Origin: Intrasporangium calvum DSM 43043
GTDB lineage: Bacteria; Actinomycetota; Actinomycetes; Actinomycetales; Dermatophilaceae
Direction: 5' to 3'
Assembly (NCBI RefSeq): GCF_000184685.1
Contig: NC_014830.1
Location: 2,728,001-2,792,000 of the forward strand
DNA: 64,000 nt
Positions 21,519 to 41,178 of the stretch are shown here, in pieces. Positions within the stretch are counted from its first letter, which is position 1. Every line of letters begins with the position of its first letter. The notes under the pieces are model-generated. The model worked only from the letters and a program-made list of their open reading frames with translations, ran no database searches and was not told the DNA's origin. Position numbers and translations under genes: made by a program.

Positions 21519-21538
21519 GGCAATTGATGGCAACTCAT
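21519..21538 (+). promoter_or_regulatory. Candidate operator A of the sugar-acid regulon (dctP promoter)
   Basis: GGCAATTGATGGCAACTCAT: two 10-bp units of the GGCAACYCRT type. It is the only recognisable regulatory site upstream of dctP, about 130 bp before its ATG. Confidence 0.7.
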
Positions 21539-21665
21539 TCTGCGGGCGAGGGCCCGCGTGGCTCACTGATCAGGGACGCTGGCCCCCGCCGGGAGCACAG
21601 CCACCGGATGATGCCCCACCTGCACGCTCAAGGATGTCGCGCAGACTGCAAAGGAAGTTGACCAC

Positions 21666-22712
21666 ATGTCACCGAAGACCCTGGCCGCGAGTGTTGTCGC
21701 GGGCCTGTCCGCCCTCGCTCTCGCCGCCTGCAGCGCCGGCACCGGCCCCGCCACGGGCACCGGCAACACCGCTGGCTCGACCCAGGCCGCTGCTGCCGCC
21801 AAGACGCTGCGCCTGTCGCTCAACCAGACGGAGCAGCACCCGTCGTTCATCGCGCTCAAGCACTTCGGTGAGCGCCTCGCGACGGCGACGAACGGCCGCC
21901 TCGGGATCCAGGTCTACCCGAACGAGACTCTCGGGGCGCAGGCCGAGGCGCTCCAGCTCGTGGGTGACGGCTCCGTCGACCTCGCGATCGTCTCTGGTTC
22001 GCAGCTCGAGAAGCTCAACCAGGACTTCTCCGTCTTCAACCTCCCGCTGGTGTTCGACTCCGTCGAGTCCCAGATGAAGGTGGTCAACAACCTCGACGTC
22101 GTCGGTGACCTGTACAAGTCACTCGAGTCGTCGAACCAGATCACCGTCGTCGGCGGTTTCACCCAGGGCACCCGGAGCGTCTACACGAGCAAGGGCCCGG
22201 TCAACACGCCGGCCGACCTCAAGGGCCAGAAGATCCGGGTCCAGGACAGCCCGCTCGCCATCGCCATGGTCGACGCGATGGGTGCGTCAGCCACCCCGAT
22301 GGCGTTCGGTGAGGTCTACACGGCGCTGCAGTCCGGCGTCATCGACGGCGCCGAGAACAACGAGGTCTCCTACGTGACGCAGAAGCACCTCGAGGTGGCC
22401 AAGTACTTCTCGCGGACCAACCACCTGGTCGGCCTCGACTACCTCATCATCAACAGCGGCCTGTTCAACGGCCTGTCTGCCGAGGACCGGGCCGCGTTCG
22501 ACAAGGAGTGGGCAGCCACCTTCGCCGAGCACACGCAGCTGTGGGCCGCCGAGACCGACAAGGCCGTCCAGACCGCCGAGGCGGCCGGAGCCAAGTTCAA
22601 CGAGGTCGACACCGCTGCCTTCCGCGCGGCTCTCGAGCCGCTCACGGCGCAGTACCTCAAGACGGACACCCAGAAGGCCCTCTACGAGGCCGCGCAGAGC
22701 GCCGCCAACTGA
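21666..22712 (+). CDS. dctP: TRAP transporter solute-binding protein, DctP type (probable uronate binder)
   Basis: A 348-residue lipoprotein with lipobox LALAACSAG (lipid Cys22). The fold signatures are NETLGAQAEALQLVGDGSVDLAIV and GEVYTALQSGVIDGAENN. Arg191 in GQKIRVQ is the conserved arginine that clamps the ligand's carboxylate. DctP proteins encoded beside uronate isomerases often bind glucuronate or galacturonate (family knowledge), so a uronate ligand is likely here. AAGGAAG precedes ATG 21666. It leads the dctPQM-nhaA operon, under candidate operator A. Confidence 0.93.
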   Translation: MSPKTLAASVVAGLSALALAACSAGTGPATGTGNTAGSTQAAAAAKTLRLSLNQTEQHPSFIALKHFGERLATATNGRLGIQVYPNETLGAQAEALQLVGDGSVDLAIVSGSQLEKLNQDFSVFNLPLVFDSVESQMKVVNNLDVVGDLYKSLESSNQITVVGGFTQGTRSVYTSKGPVNTPADLKGQKIRVQDSPLAIAMVDAMGASATPMAFGEVYTALQSGVIDGAENNEVSYVTQKHLEVAKYFSRTNHLVGLDYLIINSGLFNGLSAEDRAAFDKEWAATFAEHTQLWAAETDKAVQTAEAAGAKFNEVDTAAFRAALEPLTAQYLKTDTQKALYEAAQSAAN

Positions 22713-22786
22713 GAGACGATCGGTTCACGCTGACCGCGTGAGCCACCCAGCTCGTCCGCTTCCCTCCGTCGCGGACACCGAATGCT

Positions 22787-22818
22787 GGCCCTGTGCCCTC
22801 TCCCGGGGGCACGGGGCC
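22787..22818 (+). terminator. Hairpin between dctP and dctQ
   Basis: 12-base arms (22787-22798 and 22807-22818), one wobble pair, 8-base loop, inside the 143-bp dctP-dctQ gap. Such hairpins often attenuate read-through or protect the binding-protein mRNA so that it outnumbers the permease. Confidence 0.5.
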
Positions 22819-22855
22819 GGCACCACACACCGCGAACGTCGAAGGAAGTGCAAGG

Positions 22856-23362
22856 ATGCGCCAGGTCAAACGATGGCTCGACAAGGCTCTCGCCACCGCG
22901 TCGGTCGCCCTCTTCACCCTCCTCGTCGTGATCGTCGTGTGGCAGGTCTTCACCCGACAGGTCACCAAGGACCCGGCAACGTGGACCGAGGAGGCCGCCC
23001 GTCTGACGTTCGTCTGGCTGGGCCTGTTCGCGACGGCGCTCGTCTTCAGCGAGCGCGGTCACATCGCAGTCGACTTCATCGTGCGGCGGCTGTCCGACCC
23101 GGTGCAGCGCCTCGTCTCGATCCTCGTCCAGCTGGCCATCATCGCCTTCGCGTCCCTCATCCTCATCTGGGGCGGTTACCGTGCCGCGGGCCGTGCCTGG
23201 ACGCAGGAACTGTCGGCGCTCCCCTTCACGGCGGGCCAGATGTACCTCGTGCTGCCCCTGACCGGGCTCATCATCACCTTCTACGCCGTCTACCACGTCA
23301 CCGCCATCATCCGTCGGACCGAAGAGGCCTTCGCGATCGACGACGCCGCAGAGCCGGTCTGA
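22856..23362 (+). CDS. dctQ: TRAP transporter small permease subunit
   Basis: 168 residues with four membrane helices, the DctQ layout. WTEEAARLTFVWLGLFATALVF in helix 2 is the family signature. It starts at ATG 22856 (MRQVKRWLDKALA) with GAAGGAAG upstream; a longer frame from 22793 has no ribosome site. It pairs with DctM, which begins 11 bp after its stop. Confidence 0.93.
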   Translation: MRQVKRWLDKALATASVALFTLLVVIVVWQVFTRQVTKDPATWTEEAARLTFVWLGLFATALVFSERGHIAVDFIVRRLSDPVQRLVSILVQLAIIAFASLILIWGGYRAAGRAWTQELSALPFTAGQMYLVLPLTGLIITFYAVYHVTAIIRRTEEAFAIDDAAEPV

Positions 23363-23373
23363 GGAGCAGCACC

Positions 23374-24684
23374 ATGGAACCCGTAACGCTCGCCGCCCTG
23401 ATCCTCGCCCTGGGCATCGCCGTCAGCATCCTCGTCAGCATCCCGATCGCCGTGGGCATCGGCCTGTCGTCGCTCGGCGCCGCAGCAGTCCTCATCGGGC
23501 CCGAGAGCGCGGCGCTCGCGACCTCCCAGCGGATGTTCGCCGGCATCAACTCGTTCCCGCTGCTCGCCATCCCGTTCTTCGTCCTCGCCGGGGTCCTGAT
23601 GAACAACGGAGGGATCGCCGGCCGCCTCATCGACGCCGCCAAGGTGCTCGTGGGGCGGCTCCCGGCCTCGCTGGCCCACACCAACATCGTCGCCAACGCG
23701 ATGTTCGGGGCCGTGAGCGGCGCCGCCGTCGCCGCGGCGGCAGCGGTGGGGACGGTGATGACCCCGCGCATGGAGAAGGAGGGGTACGACAAGGCCTTCT
23801 CCGCTGCGGTCAACGTCGCGTCGGCCCCCGCAGGGATGCTCATCCCGCCGAGCAACACCTTCATCGTCTACTCGCTCGTGAGCAGCACCTCGATCGCAGC
23901 CCTGTTCATGGCCGGCGTCGGACCCGGCCTCATCTGGACCTTGGCCTGCATGGTCGTCGCGCTGATCTGGTCGCGCCGCAACTCCAACCCCGAGACGCCC
24001 GTTCGGCCGACCCTCAGCCAGGCCGCTCTCGTCCTGTGGCGCGCGGTCCCGTCGCTCCTCATGATGGTCATCGTCATCGGCGGCATCATCGCCGGGGTCT
24101 TCACGGCAACGGAGTCGTCGGCGATCGCCGTCGTCTACTGCCTCCTGCTCGGGTTCGCCTACCGCGCCATCAAGGTCGCCGACCTGCCCCGCATCGTCCT
24201 CGACGCCTCGCGGACGACTGCCATCGTCATGCTCCTCGTCGGAGTCTCGTCGGCGCTCTCCTTCGTGATGTCGTTCGCGCGGATCCCCGAGCTCGTCTCG
24301 GAGGCCCTGCTCGGGCTGACGACGAGCCCGGTCGCGATCCTCGTCATCATGATGGTGATCCTGCTCGTCGTGGGCACCTTCATGGACCCGACGCCGGCGA
24401 TCCTCATCTTCGTGCCGATCTTCCTGCCGATCGTCATGTCGTTCGGCATCAACCCGGTGCACTTCGGCACGATGATCGTCTACAACCTGTGCGTCGGGGT
24501 GATCACGCCGCCGGTCGGCAACGTCCTCTTCGTCGGGTCGAGGGTGGCGGGCCTGCGCATCGAGCCGGTGGTCGCCAAGCTCGTGCCCTTCCTCGTCGCC
24601 CTCGTCATCGGCCTGTTCGTCGTGGTGTTCACGCCGGCCGTCTCGACGTGGCTACCGATCCAGATGGGCCTGATGAGCCCGTGA
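23374..24684 (+). CDS. dctM: TRAP transporter large permease subunit
   Basis: A 436-residue Na+-coupled permease with about twelve hydrophobic segments. DctM motifs include FPLLAIPFFVLAGVLMNNGG, SAPAGMLIPPSNTFIVYS and NLCVGVITPPVGNVLF. The ATG at 23374 is preceded by GAGGAG. It forms the translocation path for the DctP ligand and is driven by the sodium gradient in characterised family members. The nhaA start is six bases after its stop. Confidence 0.95.
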   Translation: MEPVTLAALILALGIAVSILVSIPIAVGIGLSSLGAAAVLIGPESAALATSQRMFAGINSFPLLAIPFFVLAGVLMNNGGIAGRLIDAAKVLVGRLPASLAHTNIVANAMFGAVSGAAVAAAAAVGTVMTPRMEKEGYDKAFSAAVNVASAPAGMLIPPSNTFIVYSLVSSTSIAALFMAGVGPGLIWTLACMVVALIWSRRNSNPETPVRPTLSQAALVLWRAVPSLLMMVIVIGGIIAGVFTATESSAIAVVYCLLLGFAYRAIKVADLPRIVLDASRTTAIVMLLVGVSSALSFVMSFARIPELVSEALLGLTTSPVAILVIMMVILLVVGTFMDPTPAILIFVPIFLPIVMSFGINPVHFGTMIVYNLCVGVITPPVGNVLFVGSRVAGLRIEPVVAKLVPFLVALVIGLFVVVFTPAVSTWLPIQMGLMSP

Positions 24685-24690
24685 CCGACC

Positions 24691-25962
24691 ATGGGTGACC
24701 ATCAACCCCGGGCCGGCAAGCGCCGCACTGGCCGCGGGCAGAACGGGCGGGTCCTCTTCGGGCCGTTGACCCGGGGCGGCGAGCGCAACTTCCTCGACAC
24801 CCTGCGGGCCGAGAACGTCGGCGCCCTGCTCCTGCTCCTCGTCAGCGTCCTCGCCCTCGCCTGGGCCAGCTCGCCGTGGGAGTCGGCCTATCGCGCGATC
24901 TCCGACTTCCGGCTCGGGCCGGGGCAGGTCGGACTCGACCTGCCCGTCGCCACCTGGGCCACGGACGGCCTGCTCGCCTTCTTCTTCTTCGTCGTGGGGC
25001 TCGAGCTGAAGCGCGAGTTCACCACCGGCGAGCTGAGCAGCCCGCGCCGGGCCGCCCTGCCGGTCATCGCTGCCCTCGGCGGGATGGCGGCACCGGCTCT
25101 CATCTATCTCCTGGTCAACCTCGCCGCGGATGGTCAGCCCCGGGGCTGGGCGGTCCCCACGGCGACGGACATCGCCTTCGCAGTGGCCGTCATCTCGGCC
25201 TTCGGCCGCCGACTCCCCACGGCGCTGCGGGCCTTTCTCCTCACCCTGGCCGTCGCCGACGACTTCGGCGGGATCATCATCATCGCCACGGTCTTCGCGC
25301 ACGGTTTCAACCTCGTGACGCTCCTTGCCGGACTCGCGGCGATCGGGGTCTTCGCCTGGCTCGTGCGACGCGGGGCCCACCCCGCCGTGCTGCTCGTCGT
25401 CGGGGTGCTGGCGTGGTGGGCGATCCACTCGTCGGGCATCCACGCGACCATCACCGGAGCCGCCCTCGCCTTCACCGTCCCGGCCGGCGCCCGCAAGGAC
25501 GACGAGCCGTCGGTCGCCGAGCGGTTCGAGCACGTCTGGCGGCCCTTCACGGCCGGCTTCGCCGTCCCCGTGTTCGCCTTCTTCGCGGTCGGCATGCGGG
25601 TCGACCCCGCGACGATCGGTGACTCGCTGAGCAGTCCCGTCGCGATCGGCATCATCCTGGGGCTCGTCGTCGGCAAGCCCATCGGCATCGTGACCGCGAC
25701 GCTCCTCGGGGCACGCCTGTTGCGGTTGCACCCAGAGGCCAAGGGTGCCTGGCTCGACCTGCTCGCCGTGTCGTGCACCGCCGGGGTCGGCTTCACCGTC
25801 TCGCTGCTCGTCAACTCGCTGACGTTCCAGAACGGGGCCGGTGAGGTCGGCAAGGCCGGCATCCTCGTGGCCTCGGTGTCCTCCGCGGTCCTCGGCTCGG
25901 CCCTGCTCACGTGGCGGTCCCGCGTCCACGAGCGTCGTGGGGATCCCGTCCCGGTCAGCTGA
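24691..25962 (+). CDS. nhaA: Na+/H+ antiporter NhaA
   Basis: A 423-residue antiporter with about eleven membrane helices after a basic 30-residue N-terminus. The ion-binding aspartate pair is Asp190-Asp191 in LAVADDFGG, and Asp160 in VPTATDIAFA matches the conserved Asp133 of E. coli NhaA. It exchanges internal Na+ for external H+. Its position six bases after dctM suggests it exports the sodium brought in by the TRAP importer (inference). It converges on gntK with only 14 bp between stops. Confidence 0.93.
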   Translation: MGDHQPRAGKRRTGRGQNGRVLFGPLTRGGERNFLDTLRAENVGALLLLLVSVLALAWASSPWESAYRAISDFRLGPGQVGLDLPVATWATDGLLAFFFFVVGLELKREFTTGELSSPRRAALPVIAALGGMAAPALIYLLVNLAADGQPRGWAVPTATDIAFAVAVISAFGRRLPTALRAFLLTLAVADDFGGIIIIATVFAHGFNLVTLLAGLAAIGVFAWLVRRGAHPAVLLVVGVLAWWAIHSSGIHATITGAALAFTVPAGARKDDEPSVAERFEHVWRPFTAGFAVPVFAFFAVGMRVDPATIGDSLSSPVAIGIILGLVVGKPIGIVTATLLGARLLRLHPEAKGAWLDLLAVSCTAGVGFTVSLLVNSLTFQNGAGEVGKAGILVASVSSAVLGSALLTWRSRVHERRGDPVPVS

Positions 25963-25976: not shown

Positions 25977-27602
25977 TCAGGACAGCAGCTCGGCGGCCCG
26001 GGCCAGCTCGTGCAGTCGGGCGACGACCGAGGCACGCGCGATGCGGTATGCCGCTGAGCTCGCTTCCGGGGCCACCACCGTCGCGTCGTGGTGGCCTGGG
26101 CCGTGGCCTGGGCCGTCGACGAGCCCCGGGGCGAGCCGCTCCAGGGCCGGCTCGAGCCCGTCGCTCGCGTGGATCCCGATGAGGCCGAGGGCCGCTGCAC
26201 CGAGCGCCGACCCCTCGGCCCCTCCGGTGACGACGAGCGGGCGGGCGAGGGCGCCGGCGAGGACCTCTCGCCAGAGCGGGCTGCGGAAGACGCCGCCGGT
26301 GGCCCGGATCGCGCTCACCGGGGTGACGTCGTCCAACCCGTCGAGGACCGTGGCGAGCTGGAACGCGACCCCCTCGACGGCGGCGCGGACGAAGTGACCG
26401 CGGGTGTGGTGCTGCCGGATGCCGAGGAAGGCGCCCCGCAGGTCGGCGTCCCAGAGCGGCCCGCGCTCGGCGAGGAGGAAGGGCAGCATGACGAGCCCGT
26501 CACTGCCGGGCTCGACCTGCTCGGCGAGGGCGAGGACCTCGGCGTCACCGACGGGGGTGGCCGACGCGTCGGGTGCGGAGCCGGGACGGTCCGCCGCGAA
26601 CACGGAGCCGGCCCACCGGACGACGGCGCCGCCGTTGCTGATCGCCGTGCCGACGACCCAGGCCTCGTCGGTCAGCGCATAGCAGAAGAGCCGGCCCGAC
26701 GGGTCGCTGCGGGGGCCGTCGACGACGAGCCGGAGGGCGCCGCTCGTGCCGAGCGACAGACCGGCAACCCCGGGTCTGATCGCGCCCGTGCCGAGGTTGC
26801 CCAAGGGCCCGTCGCCGGCGCCGAGCACGACGGGCGTGCCTACGGGCAGGCCCACTCGCCCGGCGGCGTCCCGGGAGAGGGGCAGGCTGGCAGTCGTCGA
26901 GAGGATCTGCGGGAGCTGGTCCAGGCGCACCCCCGCGAGGTCGAGTGCCTCGGCGTCCCAGGTCCGGTGGGCGATGGACAGCAGCCCGGTCCCGCTCGCC
27001 GACGAGAGCTCGGTGACGAGCCGCCCGGTCAGGGCGAGGAGAACCACGTCCTTGAGCCCGACCCACGACCGGGCGGTGCGGGTCAGCTCCGGCTCGTGAC
27101 GGGAGAACCACCGCAGCTTGGTCAGCGGCGACATCGAGTGGACCGGGGTCCCACTGCGCTGGTGCAGGGACGCGGCCAAGGGGGTGGCGCGCAGCTCACG
27201 AGCCGTCTCCCGGGCCCGGGCGTCAGCCCAGGTGACGAGCGGGGTGAGCGGCCGGTGCGCGGCGTCGAGGCCGACCAGCCCGTGCATGGCTGAGCTCACC
27301 GACACCGCGACGACCTCAGCGCCGTCGAGCTGTGCGACGACGTCGGCGAGGGAGCGCAGCATCGCGTCGAGGACGACCTCGACGTCCTGGACCCGCCAGC
27401 CGGACTGCGGCCGGACCAGCGGGTACTCCTGCTGGGCCGTCCACCGCCCTGGGGGCACACCAGGCGCCCGCTGCCCACCGGGGTCGCCCGGACTTACCCG
27501 GTCGCCCGGACCACCGGGCTCGCGTGGGTCGAGGACCTCGAAACCGACGACCTTGGCCGCCGTGGTGCCGACGTCGATGCCGATGACCACCTGCCGGGTC
27601 AT
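25977..27602 (-). CDS. gntK: Gluconokinase (FGGY family)
   Basis: A 541-residue FGGY sugar kinase converting D-gluconate and ATP to 6-phosphogluconate. The phosphate loop GIDVGTTAAK starts near residue 8. Landmarks of the Bacillus GntK type rather than xylulokinase are SVSSAMHGLVGLD, RSGTPVHSMSPLTKLRW and GRLFCYALTDEAWVVG with ISNGGAVVRW. Compared with GntK it carries a Pro/Gly-rich insertion at about residues 26-54. The start ATG overlaps the uxuB stop (ATGA). One CGTATGCCGCTG-type copy lies in frame near the 3' end (SSAAYR). Confidence 0.9.
   Translation of the reverse strand: MTRQVVIGIDVGTTAAKVVGFEVLDPREPGGPGDRVSPGDPGGQRAPGVPPGRWTAQQEYPLVRPQSGWRVQDVEVVLDAMLRSLADVVAQLDGAEVVAVSVSSAMHGLVGLDAAHRPLTPLVTWADARARETARELRATPLAASLHQRSGTPVHSMSPLTKLRWFSRHEPELTRTARSWVGLKDVVLLALTGRLVTELSSASGTGLLSIAHRTWDAEALDLAGVRLDQLPQILSTTASLPLSRDAAGRVGLPVGTPVVLGAGDGPLGNLGTGAIRPGVAGLSLGTSGALRLVVDGPRSDPSGRLFCYALTDEAWVVGTAISNGGAVVRWAGSVFAADRPGSAPDASATPVGDAEVLALAEQVEPGSDGLVMLPFLLAERGPLWDADLRGAFLGIRQHHTRGHFVRAAVEGVAFQLATVLDGLDDVTPVSAIRATGGVFRSPLWREVLAGALARPLVVTGGAEGSALGAAALGLIGIHASDGLEPALERLAPGLVDGPGHGPGHHDATVVAPEASSAAYRIARASVVARLHELARAAELLS
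26045..26056 (+). repeat. CGTATGCCGCTG motif inside gntK (one mismatch)
   Basis: GGTATGCCGCTG followed by AGCTCG; the first base differs from the core. Read on the gntK strand it encodes Ser-Ser-Ala-Ala-Tyr-Arg. Confidence 0.75.
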
Positions 27603-29035
27603 GAGCTGCGTCGCGCCCCGAGGCCCTCAACGAGCCGCGTGACCTCCTCCAGCACCGCTTCGGTGTGCGGCCCGGCGTCGATGGCGAGCCACTCGAGCGT
27701 GCGTCGAGCGGCCTCGTCGAGGGTGCCCTCGCCGAGGGGGACGACCTCGTCCGCGTGTGCGTCGGTGACCGGTGCTCCGGCCCCCCGCAGGTGAGCGATC
27801 CAGGCCGCCACGAGACGCAACGCACCCCGGCTCACCCGGCCCGCCTCGAGCTCCTCCCGGACCACCGGAACGGCCCGGATCGGGATCTTCTGTGAGCCGT
27901 CCGCCGCGATCTGGGCCAGCAGGTGTCGGATCGACGGGTTGCGGTAGCGGGCCAGCAGGGCGGACCGGTAGTCACGCACCTCGTCCGCCGGCAACGACAG
28001 GTGTGCGGATGCGGCGTCCCACCACTCCTCGACCCACGCCCGGACCTCGGGGTCGGCGATGGCGTCGGCGACGGTTTCGTGGCCCAGTGACGACCCCGCG
28101 TAGGCCAGGAGCGAGTGCGAGCCGTTGAGGAGCCAGAGCTTGCGCTGCTCGAAGGGACCGACGTCGTCGACGAAGCGGGCGCCGGCCGCCTCCCAGTCCG
28201 GCCGGCCACCGGGGAAGGAACCGGACAGGACCCACTCGGAGAAGGGCTCGGTGGGCACCGTCTCCGGGTCGTCGATGCCGAGCTGCCGGGCCACCTCGGC
28301 ACGGTCGTCGGCCGTCGTGCGCGGGGTGATCCGGTCGACCATCGTCGTGACGAAGGAGACGTGCTCGCCGACCCAGGTCTCGAGCGAGGGATCGACCGCG
28401 CGGGCGAGGTCCCGGACCACCCTGGCGACCATCTCGCCGTTGTCAGGCACGTTGTCGTTGGGCACGACGGCGATCGGCCCCGCGCCGGCGGCCCGCCGGG
28501 CCAGCAGGCCGGCCACCAGCCGGCCGGGGGTGGTCGTCACGACGCCGTCGACCGGGTCGCCGCGCAGCGCGGCCACGTCGCGCACCACGTCCTCGGCCGC
28601 GGTGTCCAGCCCGCCGGAGGAGCTCCGCCGGTAGCCGGCCTCGGTCACCGTCGTCGTGACGACGCTGACCCGGGGGTCGGCGAGGTAGCGGCGCAGGGAG
28701 TCCAGGTCGTCGGCGGGATGGACGGCACTGAGGCTGGAGATCACCTCGGGTGCGGCACCCTCCGGCCCGCGCACGAGCAGGGTGTAGAGCCCCTCCTGGG
28801 CCGACAGCGCCCGGGCCGTCGCGGGTGACCGTCCGGTGAAGGCCGCGATCCCCCACTCGGCGGCGTCGGAGGCGCGCTCGGTGTACCACGCGGCGTGCGC
28901 GCGGAAGAAGTTGCCCACACCGAGGTGGACGATGCGCACGGGGGCGGCTGGGCGCCCGTCCGTCTGACGACTGAGCCGACGCGTCGGCTGGCCCGCGCTG
29001 GGATCGGGCCCAGCGGCATACGGCGAGGTGGTCAC
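27599..29035 (-). CDS. uxuB: Fructuronate reductase (mannitol dehydrogenase family, UxuB type)
   Basis: A 478-residue NAD-dependent polyol dehydrogenase. The nucleotide site is VHLGVGNFFRAH (residues 36-47), and the catalytic Lys299-Asn304-His307 set lies in RKLWLLNGSHS. In uronate pathways this family reduces D-fructuronate to D-mannonate (UxuB) or D-tagaturonate to D-altronate (UxaB); the gluconate-directed neighbours favour fructuronate here. The GTG start overlaps the uxaC stop (GTGA), and its own stop overlaps gntK (ATGA). Codons 4-9 (SPYAAG) come from a copy of the CGTATGCCGCTG motif. Confidence 0.85.
   Translation of the reverse strand: MTTSPYAAGPDPSAGQPTRRLSRQTDGRPAAPVRIVHLGVGNFFRAHAAWYTERASDAAEWGIAAFTGRSPATARALSAQEGLYTLLVRGPEGAAPEVISSLSAVHPADDLDSLRRYLADPRVSVVTTTVTEAGYRRSSSGGLDTAAEDVVRDVAALRGDPVDGVVTTTPGRLVAGLLARRAAGAGPIAVVPNDNVPDNGEMVARVVRDLARAVDPSLETWVGEHVSFVTTMVDRITPRTTADDRAEVARQLGIDDPETVPTEPFSEWVLSGSFPGGRPDWEAAGARFVDDVGPFEQRKLWLLNGSHSLLAYAGSSLGHETVADAIADPEVRAWVEEWWDAASAHLSLPADEVRDYRSALLARYRNPSIRHLLAQIAADGSQKIPIRAVPVVREELEAGRVSRGALRLVAAWIAHLRGAGAPVTDAHADEVVPLGEGTLDEAARRTLEWLAIDAGPHTEAVLEEVTRLVEGLGARRSS
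29011..29022 (-). repeat. CGTATGCCGCTG motif at the 5' end of uxuB
   Basis: Exact core followed by GGCC, starting at the fifth codon of uxuB and encoding Pro-Tyr-Ala-Ala-Gly. Confidence 0.85.
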
Positions 29036-30456
29036 AGCTTGAACGTCTTCCGCGGAATCGTCGTGACGATGTCGACCGCGGTCTCGAGCGCCTCCTCCTC
29101 GTCGAGCCGGTGCTCGGCGACGAGCTGGGCGAGGTAGGCACTGTCGAGGCGACGGGACATGTCGTGCCGCGCCGGGATCGACATGAAGGCGCGCGTGTCG
29201 TCGATGAAGCCCGACGTGCGGTAGAAGCCGGCCGTCTCCGTCGCCGCCCCACGGAACCGACGGATCGCCTCGGGCGCGTCGAGGAACCACCACGGGGCGC
29301 CGACGTAGACGCTCGGGTAGAAGCCCGCCAAGGGGGCGATCTCGCGCGAGTACACCGTCTCGTCGAGGGTGAAGAGCACGAGGTGGAACCCGGGCGCGGT
29401 GCCGAACCGGTCGAGCAGCGGCTGGAGACCGCGGGTGAACTCAGTGGCGTACGGGATGTCGTGCCCGGTGTCCGCCCCGAAGCGCTCGAACGTCGCGGTG
29501 TGGTGGTTGCGGTGGACTGCGGGGTGGAGCGTCATGACCAGCCCGTCCTCGGTTGCCATCCGGGCCATCTCGACGAGCATGTGACGGCGGAACGCGGTGG
29601 CCTCCGCCTCGTTCACCTCGCCGCGGACCGCCGACGCGTAGATCCGAGCGGCCTCCGCCTCGTCCAGCGCCAGGGTGACGACATCGGCGTGGCTGTGGTC
29701 CGAGGAGACCGCCCCGAGGGCCTTGAAGGCGCGCCGCCGCTCCTCCAAGGCCGCGATGTAACCCCGGTACGTGCCCGTGTCGACGCCGGCCGCGCGGCCG
29801 AGGTCTGCCACGAGCTGCGGGAAGTCGGCGCGGCCCGGCTCGAGGTAGCGGTCGGGGCGGAACGTCGGGACGACGCGGCGCGTGAACGCGGGGTCGTCCC
29901 GGAGGGCAGCGTGGTGGCGCAGGTCGTCGGCCGGGTCGTCGGTCGTCGCGAGGACCTCGATGTCGAACCGGTCCATCAGGGCGCGGGGCCGGTAGTCCGG
30001 TGAGGCGAGGCGCTCGGCGATCTGGTCGTAGATCGCGTCCGCCGTGTCGACGTGGAGGCGCTGGCCGATGCCGAAGACGTCGCCCAGCTCGCTCTCCATC
30101 CAGAAGCGGCTCGGTGTGCCACGGAAGGCCGGCCAGTGCTCCGCCAGGAGCCGGAAGGCACGGCGGGACTGCGCCTCGTCAAGGCTGCCGCCGCCGACGC
30201 CCAGGTCCTCCAGGGCGACGCCCTGTGCGTGCAGCAGCCGGTAGATGTAGTGGTCCGGCGAGATCAGCAGCGACGTCGGGTCGCCGAAGGGCACGTCCTC
30301 AGCCAGCCACTGGGGCGGCACGTGACCGTGGGGCGAGATGATCGGCAGGTCGCGGACCGCCTCGTGCAGACGGCGGGCGACCGAGCGCACGCCCGGGTCG
30401 GCGGGAAAGAGGCGGTCCGGGTCGAGGACGAGCGGTCGGTCTGCGGTCGCGGTCAT
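29032..30456 (-). CDS. uxaC: Uronate isomerase (glucuronate/galacturonate isomerase)
   Basis: A 474-residue TIM-barrel enzyme of the amidohydrolase superfamily. The metal motif is SPHGHVPPQWL (His43, His45). Further family stretches are ISPDHYIYRLLHAQGV, SRFWMESEL, TDDPADDL and FTLDETVYSREIAPLAGFYPSVYVGAPWWFLD. It converts D-glucuronate to D-fructuronate and D-galacturonate to D-tagaturonate. It is the first gene of the uxaC-uxuB-gntK operon, whose junctions are all 4-bp overlaps, and is divergent from larA across 99 bp. Confidence 0.96.
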   Translation of the reverse strand: MTATADRPLVLDPDRLFPADPGVRSVARRLHEAVRDLPIISPHGHVPPQWLAEDVPFGDPTSLLISPDHYIYRLLHAQGVALEDLGVGGGSLDEAQSRRAFRLLAEHWPAFRGTPSRFWMESELGDVFGIGQRLHVDTADAIYDQIAERLASPDYRPRALMDRFDIEVLATTDDPADDLRHHAALRDDPAFTRRVVPTFRPDRYLEPGRADFPQLVADLGRAAGVDTGTYRGYIAALEERRRAFKALGAVSSDHSHADVVTLALDEAEAARIYASAVRGEVNEAEATAFRRHMLVEMARMATEDGLVMTLHPAVHRNHHTATFERFGADTGHDIPYATEFTRGLQPLLDRFGTAPGFHLVLFTLDETVYSREIAPLAGFYPSVYVGAPWWFLDAPEAIRRFRGAATETAGFYRTSGFIDDTRAFMSIPARHDMSRRLDSAYLAQLVAEHRLDEEEALETAVDIVTTIPRKTFKL

Positions 30457-30511: not shown

Positions 30512-30555
30512 AGCCGGGGTTGTCAGGTGCCGTTCCCCCGACGACAGTGGGGGCC

Positions 30556-32834: not shown

Positions 32835-32893
32835 GCGGTCAATCTAGGGGCGTGGCCAGGTCGCGGCAATCGACCGCGCGGGTGCCGCAGGCC

Positions 32894-32913
32894 GGCAACA
32901 CATGGCAACCCGT
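32894..32913 (+). promoter_or_regulatory. Candidate operator C between the two lacI genes
   Basis: GGCAACACATGGCAACCCGT, two 10-bp units, in the 114-bp divergent lacI-lacI gap. This suggests auto- or cross-regulation. Confidence 0.7.
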
Positions 32914-32948: not shown

Positions 32949-34001
32949 ATGGAGAAGGCGGTCACGATCTACGACGTGGCGAAAGCCGCAGGGGTCGCGC
33001 CGTCGACGGTCTCACGGGCGTTCTCCCGTCCGGGCCGGCTCAACGCCGCCACAGCCGAGCGGATCCTCCGGGTCGGGGCCGCCTTGGGCTACCAGCGCGG
33101 CGGCGCCGGTCGCGACGGCGCCGGCAGCGCTGCGGGCGCTGCGGACATGGCGGGCGCTCCGGGCGGTGGTCCCGGCCGACCGGCCGCGCACATGATCGCG
33201 CTCATCGTTCCCGACATCACCAACCCGTTCTACTTCGAGATCATCCGGGGCGCCGAGCGCGCTGCGTCCGAGGCTGGGTTCACGCTCGTCCTCTCCGACA
33301 CACAGGAGTCGCGTCGGCTCGAGCGCGACGCCCTCGAGCGGACGAGCTCCGTCGTCGCCGGACTGCTCCTGACGAGCACGCGGATGGATGACTCCGAGAT
33401 CGTCGCCGTGTCCCGCCGGACCCCTCTGGTGGTGCTCAACCGGGAGGTCGACGGCGTGCCGAGCGTCGTCACCGACAACCGGGCCGGGGCGCGCCAGGCC
33501 GTCGAGCACCTCGTCGACCTCGGGCACTCGTCCGTCACCTACGTCGCCGGGCCCGAGGCGTCCTGGGCCGACCGCCAGCGGTGGACCGCCGCGCAGGAGG
33601 CCTGTCTCGAGCGGGGCGTCGGGGTGCGCCGCGTCGGCCCGTTCGCGCCGACCGTGGATGCCGGCCGCTACGCCGCCCAGGCGGTCCTGGGACACCCGGG
33701 GTCCGCCGTGCTCTGCTACAACGACCAGCTCGCCATCGGACTGATCCGGGGTCTCGGACTGCTGGGCGCCCGGGTCCCCGATGACGTGAGCATCATCGGC
33801 TTCGACAACACCCTGGTCGCTGACCTCGTCACACCGGGCATCACCACGGTCGCGGCGCCGCTCGACTCCCTCGGCGCGACGGGGGTCAACGGGCTCATCG
33901 GTCTGGTCACCGGTCGACGCCGGCCGGACCCGCTCGTCGTGCTCCCGTCGATGCTCGTCGTCCGGGGCTCGACGGCAGCTGCTGTCCTCTGGCGCCCCTG
34001 A
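32949..34001 (+). CDS. LacI-family transcriptional regulator, second copy
   Basis: 350 residues with HTH TIYDVAKAAGVAPSTVSRAF (residues 6-25), nearly identical in the recognition helix to the divergent LacI gene, so both may bind the same operator. A low-complexity Ala/Gly linker at about residues 56-82 is unusual and separates the HTH and hinge from the sensor domain (MIALIVPDITNPFYFEIIRGAERAA onward). It starts at ATG 32949. Its stop lies in the first unit of a 19-bp direct repeat. The sensor domains of the two proteins differ, so the ligands may differ. Confidence 0.9.
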   Translation: MEKAVTIYDVAKAAGVAPSTVSRAFSRPGRLNAATAERILRVGAALGYQRGGAGRDGAGSAAGAADMAGAPGGGPGRPAAHMIALIVPDITNPFYFEIIRGAERAASEAGFTLVLSDTQESRRLERDALERTSSVVAGLLLTSTRMDDSEIVAVSRRTPLVVLNREVDGVPSVVTDNRAGARQAVEHLVDLGHSSVTYVAGPEASWADRQRWTAAQEACLERGVGVRRVGPFAPTVDAGRYAAQAVLGHPGSAVLCYNDQLAIGLIRGLGLLGARVPDDVSIIGFDNTLVADLVTPGITTVAAPLDSLGATGVNGLIGLVTGRRRPDPLVVLPSMLVVRGSTAAAVLWRP

Positions 34002-36614: not shown

Positions 36615-36634
36615 ACGAGTTGCCATGAGTTGCA
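36615..36634 (-). promoter_or_regulatory. Candidate operator D upstream of the GH3 gene
   Basis: The minus strand reads GCAACTCATGGCAACTCGT within this interval: two 10-bp units, the first lacking its leading G. It lies about 92 bp before the GH3 start. Confidence 0.7.
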
Positions 36635-36659
36635 GCGGCGCCCGGACCGGCCGCCGGGC

Positions 36660-36689
36660 GGCAACGGTCGGCAACTCGTGGCAAGCCCT
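36660..36689 (+). promoter_or_regulatory. Candidate operator E upstream of gnd, three units
   Basis: Three successive 10-bp units with GGCAAC-type starts: GGCAACGGTC, GGCAACTCGT, GGCAAGCCCT. It lies about 130 bp before the gnd start. Confidence 0.7.
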
Positions 36690-36819: not shown

Positions 36820-38256
36820 GTGAGCACCCCTGCGCAAGCGAACATCGGCGTCATCGGCCTCGCCGTGATGGGCAGCAACCTGGCCCGGAACCTGGCCCGC
36901 CACGGGCACACCGTCGCCGTCTTCAACCGGACCCACGCACGGACCCTCGCGCACCTCGAGTCGCACCGGGCGGAGGGCGCGTTCGTCGGGGCGGAGACGC
37001 TCGAGGAGTTCGTCGCAGCGCTCGTCCGGCCACGCAGGGTCGTCATCATGGTCCAGGCCGGACCCGGGACGGACGCGGTGATCGACCAGCTCGCACCGCT
37101 CCTCGAGGAGGGCGACATCATCGTCGACGGGGGCAACGCCCACTTCGAGGACACCCGGCGACGCGAGGCGCGGCTGCGCGAGGTGGGGCTCCACTTCGTC
37201 GGCACCGGAATCTCGGGCGGGGAGGTCGGCGCGCTCGAGGGCCCCTCGATCATGCCGGGCGGCTCGCCGGAGTCCTACGCCGCGCTCGGCCCCATCCTCG
37301 AGTCGATCGCGGCCCAGGTCGACGGCGAGCCGTGCTGCGCGCACCTCGGCCCGGACGGCGCCGGCCACTTCGTCAAGATGGTCCACAACGGCATCGAGTA
37401 CGCCGACATGCAGTTCATCGCCGAGGCCTACGACGTGCTGACGGCGGCGGGGCTGACCGCCCCGGAGGCCGCGGACGTCTTCCGCGAGTGGAACACCGGC
37501 GAGCTCGACTCCTTCCTCATCGAGATCACCGCCGAGGTCCTCGACCAGGTCGACGCGGCGACGGGCCGGCCCCTCGTCGAGCTCATCGTCGACGCAGCCG
37601 AGCAGAAGGGCACCGGCCTCTGGACCGTCCAGACCGCACTCGAGCTCGGGGTTCCCGTCTCGACGATCGCCGAGTCGGTCTTCGCCCGGTCCGCGTCCGG
37701 TGACCGGGCGGTCCGGGAGGCGGCACGGGGAGTGCTCCGCGGGCCCGACCGGGAGCTGCCGGCCGTCGAGCGCCGCCAGCTCGTCGACGACGTGCGGGAC
37801 GCGCTGTGGTCGTCCAAGGTCGTCGCCTACGCCCAGGGGCTGGAGCAGATCCGCAAGGCGAGCGACGAGTACCACTGGGGCGTCGACATCGCGACGGTCG
37901 CGCGGCTGTGGCGCGGCGGCTGCATCATCCGGGCCCGCCTGCTCAAGCAGATCAGCGACGAGTACGCCGTCGGTCGGCTCGCCACGCTCCTCGTCGCGCC
38001 GAGCATCCGGTCCGGACTGGCCGAGCGCCAGGGTGCCTGGCGACGCGTCGTCGCGGCCGCCACCACCGCGGGCGTGCCCGTTCCCGGGTTCTCGAGCGCG
38101 CTCGCCTACTACGACACCGTCCGAGCCGAGCGTCTGCCCGCCGCGCTCGTCCAGGGGCTGCGCGACAACTTCGGGGCGCACACCTACGGACGGGTCGACC
38201 GCGCCGGCGCCTTCCACACGCTGTGGTCCTCCGACCGCACCGAGGTCCAGCTCTGA
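36820..38256 (+). CDS. gnd: 6-phosphogluconate dehydrogenase, decarboxylating
   Basis: A 478-residue enzyme oxidising 6-phosphogluconate to ribulose-5-phosphate and CO2. The nucleotide-binding loop is IGVIGLAVMGSNLARNLA (from residue 9), the substrate loop is GISGGEVGALEGPSIMPGG (130-148), and the catalytic Lys186 is in GHFVKMVHNGIEY. The C-terminal helical domain is complete, the full-length homodimeric type. GTG 36820 has AAAGGAA upstream; the longer frame has no ribosome site. It is followed eight bases later by larE, so the pathway's last enzyme and the cofactor genes are probably one transcript. Confidence 0.95.
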   Translation: MSTPAQANIGVIGLAVMGSNLARNLARHGHTVAVFNRTHARTLAHLESHRAEGAFVGAETLEEFVAALVRPRRVVIMVQAGPGTDAVIDQLAPLLEEGDIIVDGGNAHFEDTRRREARLREVGLHFVGTGISGGEVGALEGPSIMPGGSPESYAALGPILESIAAQVDGEPCCAHLGPDGAGHFVKMVHNGIEYADMQFIAEAYDVLTAAGLTAPEAADVFREWNTGELDSFLIEITAEVLDQVDAATGRPLVELIVDAAEQKGTGLWTVQTALELGVPVSTIAESVFARSASGDRAVREAARGVLRGPDRELPAVERRQLVDDVRDALWSSKVVAYAQGLEQIRKASDEYHWGVDIATVARLWRGGCIIRARLLKQISDEYAVGRLATLLVAPSIRSGLAERQGAWRRVVAAATTAGVPVPGFSSALAYYDTVRAERLPAALVQGLRDNFGAHTYGRVDRAGAFHTLWSSDRTEVQL

Positions 38257-38264: not shown

Positions 38265-39155
38265 ATGAGTCAGACTGACGTCATGGACGTCCACGCTCCG
38301 CTCCCCCCCGCGCTCGCGGAGCCGGCTGATGCCGTGAGCCGGCACATCGTCGCCCGTATGCCGCTGGGCTCGGTCGGGCGCCTCGGCGTGGCCTTCTCCG
38401 GGGGCGTGGACTCCGGCCTCCTCCTCGCGCTCGCCATCCGGACGCTCGGGGCCGAGCGCGTGCTCGCGGTCATCGGGGTCTCGCCGAGCCTGGCCCGGGA
38501 CGAGCTCCACGGTGCCCGCGACGTCGCGGCGGCGATCGGGGCCCCGGTCGTCGAAGTCGCGACCCACGAGGGCGACCACCCCCGGTACCGCGCCAACGGA
38601 CCGGACCGCTGCTTCTTCTGCAAGGACGAGCTGTTCACCCGGATCACCGACGAGGTGGCGGGGCGGCACGGGCTCGTCGCGGTCGCCTACGGCGAGAACG
38701 CCGACGACGCGCGGCGCCCCGACCGGCCCGGGGCCCGGGCGGCGACGAACCATCACGTGCTCCGCCCCCTCGCGGACGCCGGTCTGGGGAAGTCGGACGT
38801 GCGGGCGCTGGCGCGGGGCCTGCGGCTGCCGAACGCCGACAAACCGGCGGCCCCGTGCCTCGCCTCACGCATCCCGCACTTCACGGAGGTCGACCCGGCC
38901 AGGCTGGCCCAGGTCGAGGCCGCGGAGCAGGGCCTGCGCCGGCTCGGGTTCGGCGACTGCCGGGTTCGTCACCACGGTGAGGTCGCTCGCGTCGAGCTGC
39001 CCGAGGCCGACCTCGCTCGCGCCATGGAGCCGGCGATGCGCTCGGCTGTCCACGGTGTCGGGACTGCGGCCGGCTTCCGGTTCGTCGCAGTCGACGTGAA
39101 CGGCATCCAGTCCGGCGCCTTCACGCTCCCCCTGGTCCCGGTGAACCATGGCTGA
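38265..39155 (+). CDS. larE: LarE, sulfur transferase for the nickel-pincer cofactor
   Basis: A 296-residue PP-loop ATPase (SGGVDS at 45-50) that adenylates the pincer precursor and donates sulfur to its carboxyls. Three cysteines stand out: Cys116 and Cys119 in RCFFCK, and Cys198 in APCLASRIP. Single-cysteine LarE proteins sacrifice the residue at the 198 position, whereas three-cysteine forms carry a [4Fe-4S] cluster that passes on sulfide. This pattern suggests the cluster type (inference). ATG 38265 is the chosen start, 38283 an alternative. Codons 31-34 (MPLG) come from the CGTATGCCGCTG motif. Confidence 0.93.
   Translation: MSQTDVMDVHAPLPPALAEPADAVSRHIVARMPLGSVGRLGVAFSGGVDSGLLLALAIRTLGAERVLAVIGVSPSLARDELHGARDVAAAIGAPVVEVATHEGDHPRYRANGPDRCFFCKDELFTRITDEVAGRHGLVAVAYGENADDARRPDRPGARAATNHHVLRPLADAGLGKSDVRALARGLRLPNADKPAAPCLASRIPHFTEVDPARLAQVEAAEQGLRRLGFGDCRVRHHGEVARVELPEADLARAMEPAMRSAVHGVGTAAGFRFVAVDVNGIQSGAFTLPLVPVNHG
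38355..38366 (+). repeat. CGTATGCCGCTG motif inside larE
   Basis: Exact core followed by GGCT. It is read in frame as Arg-Met-Pro-Leu-Gly just before the PP-loop strand. Confidence 0.9.
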
Positions 39156-39843
39156 CGCCGAGTCCGCCGGCCTCCAAGGGATCGCCGAGCTCGACCTGAC
39201 GCGCGCAGCCCGGCGGGGCTATCCCGAGGCGGTCTACTGCGCGGGCAAGTCACCCGACCAGGTGGCGGCCATCGCCCGCGCGCTCCGGGACGCGCACGCC
39301 GCGGGCGCGACGACCGGCTCCGCCCTGTTCACCCGTGCGTCGGCCGACCACGCCGAGGCAGTCCTCCGGGTGCTGCCCGACGCGGTCCACGACGAGGTCG
39401 GGCGGATTCTCGCCTGGCCGCCGCGGGCGCCCGAGCCGACCGGCGGGCTCGTCGCGGTGCTGTGTGCCGGCACCTCCGACCTCCCGGTGGCACGCGAGGC
39501 GGTCGTCACCCTCACCTATCTCGGCCGCCCGACCGAGCTCGTCGTCGACATCGGCGTGGCCGGCCTCCACCGGGTGCTCGCGAGACAGGACCTCATCGAC
39601 TCCGCGCGGGCCATCGTCGTCGTCGCGGGGATGGACGGCGCGCTCGCTTCGGTCGTCGCCGGCCTGGCCCATGCCCCGGTCGTGGCGGTGCCGACCTCGG
39701 TCGGCTACGGGGCGGCCTTCGAGGGGCTGGCTCCGCTGCTGTCGATGCTCAACGCCTGCGCGCCGGGCGTGGGCGTGGTCAACATCGACAACGGTTACGG
39801 CGGGGGCCACCTCGCCGCCCAGATCGCCGCCCCGACCTCCTGA
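39148..39843 (+). CDS. larB: LarB, pyridinium-3,5-biscarboxylic acid mononucleotide synthase
   Basis: A 231-residue PurE-like carboxylase. It carboxylates and hydrolyses nicotinic acid adenine dinucleotide, the first step of the nickel-pincer cofactor. The C-terminal PurE-fold half has VLCAGTSDLPVAREA, VVAGMDGALASVVAGL and VPTSVGYG. Cys204 in NACAPGVGVVNIDNGYGGG is the likely counterpart of the catalytic cysteine described in LarB. The start overlaps larE by eight bases. It converges on larC with 51 bp between the stops. Confidence 0.94.
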   Translation: MADAESAGLQGIAELDLTRAARRGYPEAVYCAGKSPDQVAAIARALRDAHAAGATTGSALFTRASADHAEAVLRVLPDAVHDEVGRILAWPPRAPEPTGGLVAVLCAGTSDLPVAREAVVTLTYLGRPTELVVDIGVAGLHRVLARQDLIDSARAIVVVAGMDGALASVVAGLAHAPVVAVPTSVGYGAAFEGLAPLLSMLNACAPGVGVVNIDNGYGGGHLAAQIAAPTS

Positions 39844-39894
39844 GTCGCGGAGGATCTCCGACTGGTCTCGGCGACCGGCGTGCGCCTGGGTGGG

Positions 39895-41178
39895 TCAGAG
39901 CGTGGCCCCCGGGGTGAGGCCGGCCGCCGCGGCAGCGGCCACCGCGGCGTCGAGGACGACGCGGACCGGCCGCTCCAGAGCCGTCGCCGCCGCCTCGACA
40001 TCCGCGAGCTCGGGCGTCGCCTGCACGACCCGGCCCTCGCGGTGCGCGACCTTGATGCCGACCCGACGTCCCTCGACATCGACGTCGACCCACTGGCGGG
40101 GCAGCGCCCAGCGGTCCACGATGGTGCGACGTACCCCGATGGTGCTCGTCAGGGTGAGCACGAGGTCCCGAAGCCGTGCCTCGTCCTCCCGGCGGCCGAG
40201 GACCGACAGCGTGTGCGCTGGACGCCCCTTCTTCATCAGGATCGGCGTCAGCCAGGCGTCGGCGGCCCCCGCATCGAAGAGAGACGCGAGCACCGAGGGC
40301 CAGACCCGGGGATCGAGGTCGTCGACGTTGGCCTCGAGCACGGTGAGCGTCGTCTGTTCCAGCTCGGCTGGGACAGTGGAGGACTCGGTGTCGGACTCGG
40401 TGTCGGACTCAGCCGGGGCGGCCGCTCCGGCGCGACCGAGCACGGCCCGGACGACATTCGCGCGACCCTCGACGTCCTTGCTGCCCGCACCGGCGCCGAC
40501 GGCGGTCAGCTCCATCTTGGGCAGCGGACCCTGGCCCGACGCGAGCGTGGTGACGAGGGCGACCCCGGTGGGTGTCGCCAGCTCTCCGTCCCCGACGGCG
40601 TCGAGCACCCAGCCGACCGCCAGCCCCAGCACCGCTGGGACCGGCACGGGGATGCGGCCGTGCGCGCCGTGGACCGAGCCGGAGCCGACGGCGATGACGC
40701 TCGCGACGACCTCGGAGACCGCGAGGTCCTCGAGCGCCGCGCACACGCCCACGACATCGGCGATCGAGTCCCAGGCGCCGACCTCGTGGAAGTGCACGTC
40801 CGCGACCGGCACGCCGTGCACCTGTGCCTCGACCCGAGCCAGCGCCTCGAACACCGCGTGCGCCCGGTCGACGACCCGCTGGGGCAGCTCGGCCCCCCGG
40901 ACGAGGCGCTCCACCTCGGCCCACGTCCGGTGCGGCTGGTCGTCGATCGCTGACTCCACGTCGACCTTGACCGCCCGCATCCCGGCGCGCACCGTCTCCG
41001 TTGCGCGGATCCGCACGGCTCCCGGGATGACCGCCTCGACCGCCGCGCGGACTCGGTCGAGGGAGGCGCCCGCGTCGACGAGTGCCCCGAGGAGCATGTC
41101 CCCCGCCACCCCCGCGGACGCGTCGATCCAGAGGACCGAGCCCGGACGGTCCAGTGACGTGGGTGGAGTCTCAGGCAT
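39895..41178 (-). CDS. larC: LarC, nickel insertion enzyme for the pincer cofactor
   Basis: A 427-residue CTP-dependent cyclometallase that inserts nickel into the sulfurated pincer. N-terminal motifs are WIDASAGVAGDMLLGAL (residue 17 on) and VHFHEVGAWDSIADVVG (128-144), followed by ELATPTGVAL. A Glu/Ser/Asp/Thr-rich linker near residue 270, made by a short DNA repeat, joins the C-terminal half (LEANVDDLDPRVW, PILMKKGRPAHTL). The two halves are one frame here, not split as larC1/larC2 by a frameshift as in Lactobacillus. It is transcribed toward larB. Confidence 0.94.
   Translation of the reverse strand: MPETPPTSLDRPGSVLWIDASAGVAGDMLLGALVDAGASLDRVRAAVEAVIPGAVRIRATETVRAGMRAVKVDVESAIDDQPHRTWAEVERLVRGAELPQRVVDRAHAVFEALARVEAQVHGVPVADVHFHEVGAWDSIADVVGVCAALEDLAVSEVVASVIAVGSGSVHGAHGRIPVPVPAVLGLAVGWVLDAVGDGELATPTGVALVTTLASGQGPLPKMELTAVGAGAGSKDVEGRANVVRAVLGRAGAAAPAESDTESDTESSTVPAELEQTTLTVLEANVDDLDPRVWPSVLASLFDAGAADAWLTPILMKKGRPAHTLSVLGRREDEARLRDLVLTLTSTIGVRRTIVDRWALPRQWVDVDVEGRRVGIKVAHREGRVVQATPELADVEAAATALERPVRVVLDAAVAAAAAAGLTPGATL

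Follow-up and report, generated by a model that had tools for sequence, protein, structure and literature searches.

A glucuronate gene cluster of Intrasporangium calvum DSM 43043 with a predicted nickel-pincer D-mannonate 2-epimerase

By which route could Intrasporangium calvum DSM 43043 use D-glucuronate, if no mannonate dehydratase and no exit through 2-keto-3-deoxygluconate (KDG) can be detected in its genome? The question is raised by a stretch of 64,000 nucleotides of its chromosome (NC_014830.1, positions 2,728,001–2,792,000; hereafter, the window), in which uxaC, a uxuB-like gene, a larA homologue, an FGGY kinase gene, gnd, larE, larB, and larC all lie inside 16 kb. The same region also contains genes of a tripartite ATP-independent periplasmic (TRAP) importer, two lacI genes, and a gene of glycoside hydrolase family 3 (GH3). 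We consider it quite probable that this is a co-regulated glucuronate cluster, in which a predicted nickel-pincer LarA protein epimerises D-mannonate to D-gluconate and thereby bypasses KDG into the pentose phosphate pathway.

The proposed sequence of steps is as follows. The GH3 hydrolase would release glucuronate from beta-glucuronides, and the TRAP system would import it. UxaC is predicted to convert glucuronate to fructuronate, which the UxuB-like reductase would reduce to D-mannonate. Inversion at C2 by the LarA homologue would yield D-gluconate; the FGGY kinase would then form 6-phosphogluconate, and Gnd would produce ribulose-5-phosphate, CO2, and NADPH. The LarA homologue would receive its cofactor from LarB, LarE, and LarC, and one LacI-type regulator, acting on a 16-bp motif, would tie uxaC/larA to the GH3 gene and gnd-larE-larB. 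The same chain from glucuronate via fructuronate, mannonate, gluconate, and 6-phosphogluconate to ribulose-5-phosphate had been put forward in an earlier, sequence-only reading of this DNA, and our analysis supports it; we infer the individual reactions, their order, and the regulator from sequence. This reading fits best because of the genome-wide absences, the gene linkage, the motif, the non-overlap of LarA and UxuA, a relative (locus L114) with uxuA in a related gene set, and the similarity of the LarA homologue to GntE2 of Thermotoga maritima.

Gene assignments, search for a KDG route, and identity of the LarA homologue

Gene families were scored against curated NCBIfam cut-offs and Pfam, a score below the cut-off giving a family-level assignment only. 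These scans recovered every member of the gene set named by the sequence-only reading for this region (uxaC, uxuB, larA, gntK, gnd, larE/B/C, and the TRAP, GH3, and LacI genes). The products of uxaC, gnd, larE, larB, and larC score above their curated cut-offs. Those of the uxuB-like, FGGY kinase, and larA genes score below, and the exact substrates of these three proteins are therefore given as predictions. Fructuronate reductase (PRK15037) was the top model of its family for the UxuB-like protein (256 bits; cut-off 603), with D-arabinitol dehydrogenase (DalD) close behind (249 bits; cut-off 600); the best PDB chain was YdfI (4im7; 226 bits), followed by mannitol dehydrogenase (221 bits). Among the FGGY models, the kinase scored best with gntK_FGGY (368 bits; cut-off 648; XylB, 278 bits), and its best PDB match was the gluconate kinase 3gbt (277 bits; xylulokinase, 154 bits). 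Cys175 of the larE product is located in PAAPCLASR, which we take to be the sacrificial-cysteine motif.

The genome is represented by a single contig of 4,024,382 bases, with an estimated completeness of 100%. No match to UxuA was found in it, while 5 of 14 control genomes were positive; 2-keto-3-deoxy-6-phosphogluconate (KDPG) aldolase was likewise without a match in this genome (8 of 14 controls positive). The genome contains two matches to the C-domain of the enolase superfamily, namely o-succinylbenzoate synthase (MenC; 465 bits against a cut-off of 288) and enolase (675 against 300). The lack of mannonate dehydratase and KDPG aldolase, which the sequence-only reading had noted for the region, was thus seen in the whole genome as well. 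A functional mannonate dehydratase with a KDG pathway elsewhere in the genome, which that reading had named as a refutation, was not detected at this sensitivity, in a search that did not include KDG kinase. The canonical route via UxaC, UxuB, UxuA, KdgK, and KdgA has its first two enzymes in common with Intrasporangium but also includes UxuA and KDPG aldolase, neither of which was detected here.

A second 6-phosphogluconate dehydrogenase, of the short form, is encoded near the start of the chromosome record (G000:C1:3881-4693; TIGR00872, 326 bits against 297). It is 37% identical to the product of gnd in the window and is the sole other match in the genome, which rules out gnd as the sole housekeeping copy.

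The LarA homologue is the only Lar_N match in the genome; larB, larC, and larE therefore have no other visible client of the Lar_N family. Its best PDB sequence match is 4NAR, GntE2 of T. maritima (221 bits; residues 51–433), and the next match, a broad lactate racemase, reaches 39 bits. In a fold search with an AlphaFold2 model of the protein (mean pLDDT 88), 4NAR was again best (E 2.4e-37, TM 0.84; next match, E 2.5e-19). The two proteins share 34% identity over 376 aligned positions and the same catalytic residues, and the closest characterised relative among solved structures is thus a GntE. The gluconate 2-epimerase of the LarA superfamily that the sequence-only reading mentioned does exist: GntE1 and GntE2 turn D-mannonate into D-gluconate, and the epimerisation of D-mannonate by GntE2 was demonstrated in 2020 (PMC7583248).

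Residue numbers of the LarA homologue are counted from window position 30553, one codon ahead of the start Met. The Arg, Lys, and His residues that bind the nickel-pincer nucleotide (R41, K164, and H180 in GntE2) are present as R62, K188, and H204, and the catalytic Asp, two His, and Lys (D72, H108, H174, and K298 in LarA) as D59, H93, H178, and K303. The signature of groups 18–20, given in PMC7583248 as an E-V/S loop after the catalytic His, a Trp in alpha 11, and Ala/Val in alpha 14, is also present (E179 and V180, W299, and A362, the alpha-14 position being assumed). D59, R62, H93, H178, K188, H204, and K303, together with the E-V loop, the Trp, and the Ala, are invariant in all 31 hand-chosen clade sequences of alignment A2. 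The larA of Nocardioides sp. Root1257 was excluded from this alignment because its match is interrupted at codon 214 by an in-frame TGA (L077:10640-10642), which may mark a pseudogene, a sequence error, or something else.

Several assignments of the protein were rejected. Lactate racemase is out on the score (63 bits; cut-off 460), the gene linkage, and the fold match, and membership in LarAH18 (NF052594), its best NCBIfam model, is out at 161 bits against a cut-off of 500. The GntE2 structure 4NAR itself reaches 179 and 61 bits with the LarAH18 and lactate racemase models, respectively. No NCBIfam model for group 19 or 20 was matched by the LarA homologue. An attempt to place GntE1 of Corynebacterium glutamicum as a clade member failed, its sequence not being part of the comparison; no Lar_N match was found in the C. 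glutamicum control genome, and four other named Corynebacterium species are inside the LarA clade.

The order of two steps could also be reversed, with the kinase converting mannonate to 6-phosphomannonate and LarA then forming 6-phosphogluconate, the same end point. Extracts of Lactobacillus suebicus were shown to work in this way and to form no gluconate from mannonate alone (PMC6978723). The reversed order would also agree with a kinase that scores below the curated gluconokinase cut-off. We regard it as unlikely. GntE2 epimerises D-mannonate in vitro without prior phosphorylation (PMC7583248), and the window LarA retains both the E loop on the substrate side and a small residue in alpha 14. 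Of the FGGY kinases in the comparison, the window kinase most resembles gluconate kinase. In addition, the L. suebicus epimerase gene is not named in PMC6978723, which leaves the reversed order without homology support.

Gene linkage, operator-like motif, and UxuA in relatives

The species genomes of GTDB were scanned, and the best 80 of 578 confirmed related loci were kept; 79 of these are actinobacterial by title and one is from an Acidobacteria metagenome-assembled genome, and many end at contig edges. Unless stated otherwise, linkage counts refer to matches of at least 100 bits inside the stretch taken. The most frequent partner genes in the 80 loci are uxuB (49), uxaC (44), lacI (41), larE (38), larB (37), and larC (30); an FGGY kinase gene is present in 19 loci and gnd in 16, and 50 loci have uxaC or uxuB. 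A search with a single UxuA query gave no match in any of the 80. The locus of Ornithinimicrobium pekingense (L080) contains matches to the kinase gene, uxuB, uxaC, three TRAP parts, larA, lacI, gnd, larE, larB, and larC; a GH3 match was not found in this stretch. The gnd gene adjoins larA directly in loci L014 and L016, and dctP matches lie near larA in L026 and L080 as well as in L105–L107. The grouping is more than chance, since the gene set recurs in many relatives.

An operator-like 16-mer, TTGCCACGAGTTGCCA, a direct repeat of TTGCCA with a 10-bp step, occurs at four sites in the window, all of them intergenic and in the cluster. With up to three mismatches allowed, 0.24 sites were expected, and none of 100 shuffles reached four. 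A pattern derived from the four sites, which they match by construction, yielded no fifth site in the 4.02-Mb genome with one mismatch allowed, and the reversed control gave none. A looser motif was found at 42 sites in 29 of the 80 loci, against 0.67 expected from simulated sequence. None of these sites is inside a recognised gene, and for 29 of the 42 the closest gene start is that of uxaC, larA, or lacI, no more than 300 bp away.

The cluster probably comprises three transcription units, as judged from gene order: uxaC-uxuB-gntK on the reverse strand, and larA and gnd-larE-larB on the forward strand. The larA gene diverges from uxaC, gnd-larE-larB diverges from the GH3 gene, and larC converges on larB. 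By the position of the four sites, uxaC/larA, lacI, the GH3 gene, and gnd-larE-larB form one probable regulon, and the protein that binds the motif is probably one of the two LacI-type regulators. Many LacI-type operators are palindromes centred on CG; a palindromic 16-mer of this kind was sought in six intergenic stretches of the region and was not found.

These observations bear on the possibility that a lactate racemase gene with its maturation genes lies by chance beside an ordinary uronate operon, with gnd as a housekeeping copy. The names given to relatives in databases would suit this explanation: among the 120 listed of 8000 matches, they are nearly always (nickel-dependent) lactate racemase or lactate racemase domain-containing protein. 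Given the recurrent linkage, an intergenic motif that is confined, genome-wide, to this cluster, the low score with the lactate racemase model, and the short-form 6-phosphogluconate dehydrogenase elsewhere, such a coincidence is extremely improbable.

The distribution of LarA and UxuA was examined in a sample of 297 genomes of the order. Fifty LarA-positive genomes were split at 500 bits into 32 with a strong match (the LarA clade) and 18 with a weak one; 43 of the 46 genomes with a UxuA match were above the family cut-off and were counted as positive, and 133 genomes have UxaC. UxuA was found in none of the 32 LarA-clade genomes. Among UxaC-positive genomes, UxuA is present in 0 of 30 with the clade versus 39 of 103 without it (Fisher p 7e-6, uncorrected for shared ancestry). 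The 50 UxaC-positive genera include 13 with the LarA clade, 17 with UxuA, and none with both. In 51 UxaC-positive genomes of the sample, neither a LarA match nor UxuA was detected. In 21 of the 32 clade genomes, larA and uxaC are at most 20 kb apart. KDPG aldolase failed as a clean separator, with 22 of 32 LarA-clade genomes positive versus 40 of 43 UxuA genomes.

In one genome without a LarA match (G299), uxuA, lacI, uxaC, and uxuB are neighbours (locus L114). A UxaC tree was built from 41 of the 44 uxaC-bearing loci, selected by distance and length limits, plus the window and locus L112. The L114 UxaC nests within the LarA-partner UxaCs (support 99/95), and related gene sets have therefore held either enzyme. 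Among ten mechanically chosen open reading frames (ORFs) of L114, uxuA alone was recognised; neither KDG kinase nor aldolase was seen among the ten.

Locus L114 is also relevant to the possibility that LarA epimerises another sugar acid, such as glucarate/mannarate, as a loose part of glucuronate breakdown. For group 19, PMC7583248 itself suggests another substrate, in view of the high KM of GntE1 for mannonate and the uronate contexts, and some clade members have no uxaC neighbours. We find this alternative very unlikely: it would leave the genome without a known mannonate exit, it is at odds with the presence of uxuA, a mannonate enzyme, beside a related lacI-uxaC-uxuB set in a genome lacking a LarA match, and a glucarate role does not explain gnd near larA in as many loci as counted above.

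Genes for glycoside use point to glucuronate as the likely substrate of the cluster. The best PDB match of the window GH3 is SN243 (7qe1; 1133 bits; next non-SN243 protein, 286 bits), and the alignment is near full-length, covering residues 47–783 of 785. SN243, also a GH3 enzyme, is a beta-glucuronidase with a kcat/KM of 1.7e6 per M per s for p-nitrophenyl-beta-glucuronide in plates (PMC9730296). It originates from a metagenome screen, as indicated by the title under which PMC9730296 cites Neun et al. (2022). GH3 of the window type is present in one of the 80 loci (L026) and in L106. A GH2 beta-glucuronidase (at least 300 bits) occurs near larA in 19 of the 80, its representative scoring 883 bits with the beta-glucuronidase model (cut-off 544). 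A GPH transporter matches in 13 of the 80 loci, the representative reaching 562 bits with the glucuronide transporter model (cut-off 528).

A second LarA clade, known systems, and points weighing against the route

In 7 of the 18 genomes with weaker LarA matches, no more than 2 kb separates LarA from uxaC; the match in one of the seven (G064) is a fragment. The gene order in loci L105 and L106 is TRAP, larB, larE, lacI, gnd, LarA, uxaC, uxuB, and gntK, and L106 holds a GH3 gene whose product is 72% identical to that of the window. Locus L107 contains uxuB, uxaC, nhaA, lacI, larE, larB, and TRAP genes, with no gnd or kinase gene in the stretch taken. The LarA proteins of L105, L106, L107, and L108 pass the LarAH18 model, that of a putative hexonate epimerase (581–585 bits; cut-off 500). 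LarAH18 is thus found in L105–L107 in a like actinobacterial cluster, and in L105, L106, and L108 it shares the E-V loop, the Trp, and the catalytic set with the window LarA, but is only 26–27% identical to it; as noted above, the window protein falls below the LarAH18 cut-off. In PMC7583248 the substrate of LarAH18 is only hypothesised to be a hexonate. Its occurrence in a like cluster predicts the pair D-mannonate/D-gluconate. No partner gene was found in the stretch taken for L108, which speaks against a mannonate role of LarAH18.

The sequence-only reading knew of no described pathway with this complete gene set. As an idea, the route is already known: it was proposed for hexuronate use by T. 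maritima (Rodionova et al., 2012, as cited in PMC7583248 and PMC6978723) and is partly demonstrated by GntE2. According to PMC7583248, which cites that work, mannonate probably enters the pentose phosphate pathway by way of GntE; for galacturonate, gluconokinase and 6-phosphogluconate dehydrogenase were suggested by Rodionova et al. as the next steps, according to PMC6978723. Neither an actinobacterial form nor the UxuA exclusion or the LarAH18 link was found in the literature searched, which covered few subscription papers. The new elements are the actinobacterial form, the probable regulon, the UxuA exclusion, and the LarAH18 prediction.

The hexuronate network of T. maritima (GntE2/LarAH20, 4NAR) has the same proposed chain from mannonate via gluconate to 6-phosphogluconate. 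T. maritima, however, has UxuA and KDPG-aldolase-family matches, making a parallel KDG branch possible, and neither was detected in Intrasporangium. In the latter, larE, larB, and larC are in the cluster, and the motif is common to uxaC/larA and gnd-larE-larB; the T. maritima locus was outside the comparison. The isomerase-phosphoketolase pathway of L. suebicus likewise joins mannonate to 6-phosphogluconate without KDG, but it starts from galacturonate, has phosphorylation first, and its key genes are not named in PMC6978723.

We lean towards a broader view, with somewhat less confidence than for the window itself. Across Actinomycetes, two distant LarA clades, GntE-like and LarAH18, would serve the mannonate step, the GntE-like one always replacing mannonate dehydratase in the sampled genomes. 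Glucuronate use would be nickel-dependent, KDG-free, and NADPH-yielding, this being the sole route in Intrasporangium, and LarAH18 would be a D-mannonate/D-gluconate 2-epimerase. If this is true, a protein listed in databases as lactate racemase is, in actinobacteria from soil and elsewhere, a sugar-acid epimerase, and such actinobacteria can use a common sugar acid of plants and animals only where nickel is available. The 2012 Thermotoga proposal could then be tested in a mesophile that has no KDG exit visible in its genome, and LarAH18 would gain a substrate. The cell would also have a way to send carbon to ribulose-5-phosphate at the cost of NADH, provided that this is what the reductase uses, and with a return of NADPH.

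A number of points weigh against the proposed route. The UxuB-like reductase and the FGGY kinase both fall short of the curated cut-offs for UxuB and gluconokinase, and KDG kinase was outside the genome-wide search for a KDG route. Neither activity nor growth or expression data turned up for I. calvum. For GntE1 of C. glutamicum, a possible relative, the KM for mannonate is 120 mM (PMC7583248). The exclusion statistic treats genomes as independent of shared ancestry. Of the 11 clade genomes in which larA is not within 20 kb of uxaC, six have it on another contig, three more than 400 kb away, and two have no UxaC (G017, G125), and the clade may have a further role, given these genomes. The KDPG-aldolase-family gene is present in most clade genomes, Intrasporangium being among the ten without it. 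Neither uxaC nor uxuB is in the stretch taken for 30 of the 80 best loci, and 14, eight of them from Kribbella, have none of uxaC, uxuB, larB, larC, larE, gnd, and gntK. Finally, UxuA co-occurs with weaker LarA in 5 of the 18 genomes, in one of which (G273) LarA is 301 bases from uxaC; UxuA and LarA can therefore coexist in the LarAH18 clade.

Further features of the window

Coordinates of the genes and operator-like sites in the window, with scores given as bits against the cut-off
Feature	Position	Strand	Remarks
dctP, TRAP solute-binding subunit, predicted uronate/glucuronide uptake	21666–22712	+	TIGR00787, 211 against 175
TRAP permease ORF with DctM domain	22738–24684	+	TIGR00786, 400 against 268
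nhaA, NhaA-type sodium/proton antiporter gene	24691–25962	+	not in the gene list of the sequence-only reading
FGGY-family kinase gene, predicted gluconokinase	25977–27602	-	4-bp overlap with uxuB
uxuB-like polyol/uronate dehydrogenase gene, predicted fructuronate reductase	27599–~28963 (start approximate)	-	
uxaC, glucuronate isomerase	29032–30456	-	NF002794, 564 against 387; UxaC Pfam, 269 against 25
larA homologue, predicted D-mannonate/D-gluconate 2-epimerase	30556–31860	+	434 aa; Lar_N Pfam, 73 against 23.3
lacI-family regulator gene 1	31761–32834	-	3' end overlaps larA by 100 bp
lacI-family regulator gene 2	32952–34001 (start approximate)	+	
GH3 hydrolase gene, predicted beta-glucuronidase	34166–~36523; open frame from 36802	-	similarity to SN243
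gnd, long-form decarboxylating 6-phosphogluconate dehydrogenase	36820–38256	+	PRK09287, 688 against 413
larE, sulfur transferase for nickel-pincer cofactor	38334–39155 (start approximate)	+	TIGR00268, 266 against 150
larB, cofactor biosynthesis protein	39148–39843	+	NF033503, 258 against 175
larC, nickel insertion protein	39895–41178	-	single unbroken ORF; TIGR00299, 192 against 90; NF052512, 133 against 50
Operator-like 16-mer, between uxaC and larA	30497–30512	+	TTGCCACGAGTTGCCA
Operator-like 16-mer, between the two lacI genes	32893–32908	-	
Operator-like 16-mer, between GH3 gene and gnd	36620–36635	+	
Operator-like 16-mer, between GH3 gene and gnd	36669–36684	-	
Weak variant of the 16-mer, upstream of dctP	21518–21533	-	4 mismatches by eye, below the reach of the window search; left out of the site count

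The TRAP genes and nhaA point toward gntK. In the TRAP permease ORF, DctM was the one domain recognised by Pfam; by tblastn, the N-terminal part of this ORF is similar to a dctQ-like stretch that stands separately in L107 and L080. An NhaA-type antiporter gene is also present in the LarAH18-type cluster of L107 (L107:11966-13156); perhaps NhaA recycles sodium taken up by the TRAP importer.

The overlap of larA with the 3' end of the convergent lacI gene (31761–31860; 100 bp) is an unusual conserved antisense overlap. Judged by tblastn bounds, it is seen in 24 of the 80 best loci and measures 85–94 bp in 23 of these.

An Rfam scan revealed a tRNA and nothing else. Several short repeats were identified. 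A perfect 12-bp tandem repeat of 5.2 copies is located upstream of dctP (21355–21416). Upstream of larC, at 41231–41541, a unit with GCAACACAC and GTGTGTTGC at its borders is present twice, on either side of a 27-bp tandem repeat (3.3 copies). The 13-mer CAGCGGCATACGG is found ten times in the window (at 5762, 9590, 19731, 29011, 36759, 38354, 41312, 41592, 54001, and 60756). The 15-mer CCCAGCGGCATACGG occurs 339 times genome-wide (154 forward and 185 reverse; reversed control, 0) and represents a short dispersed repeat.

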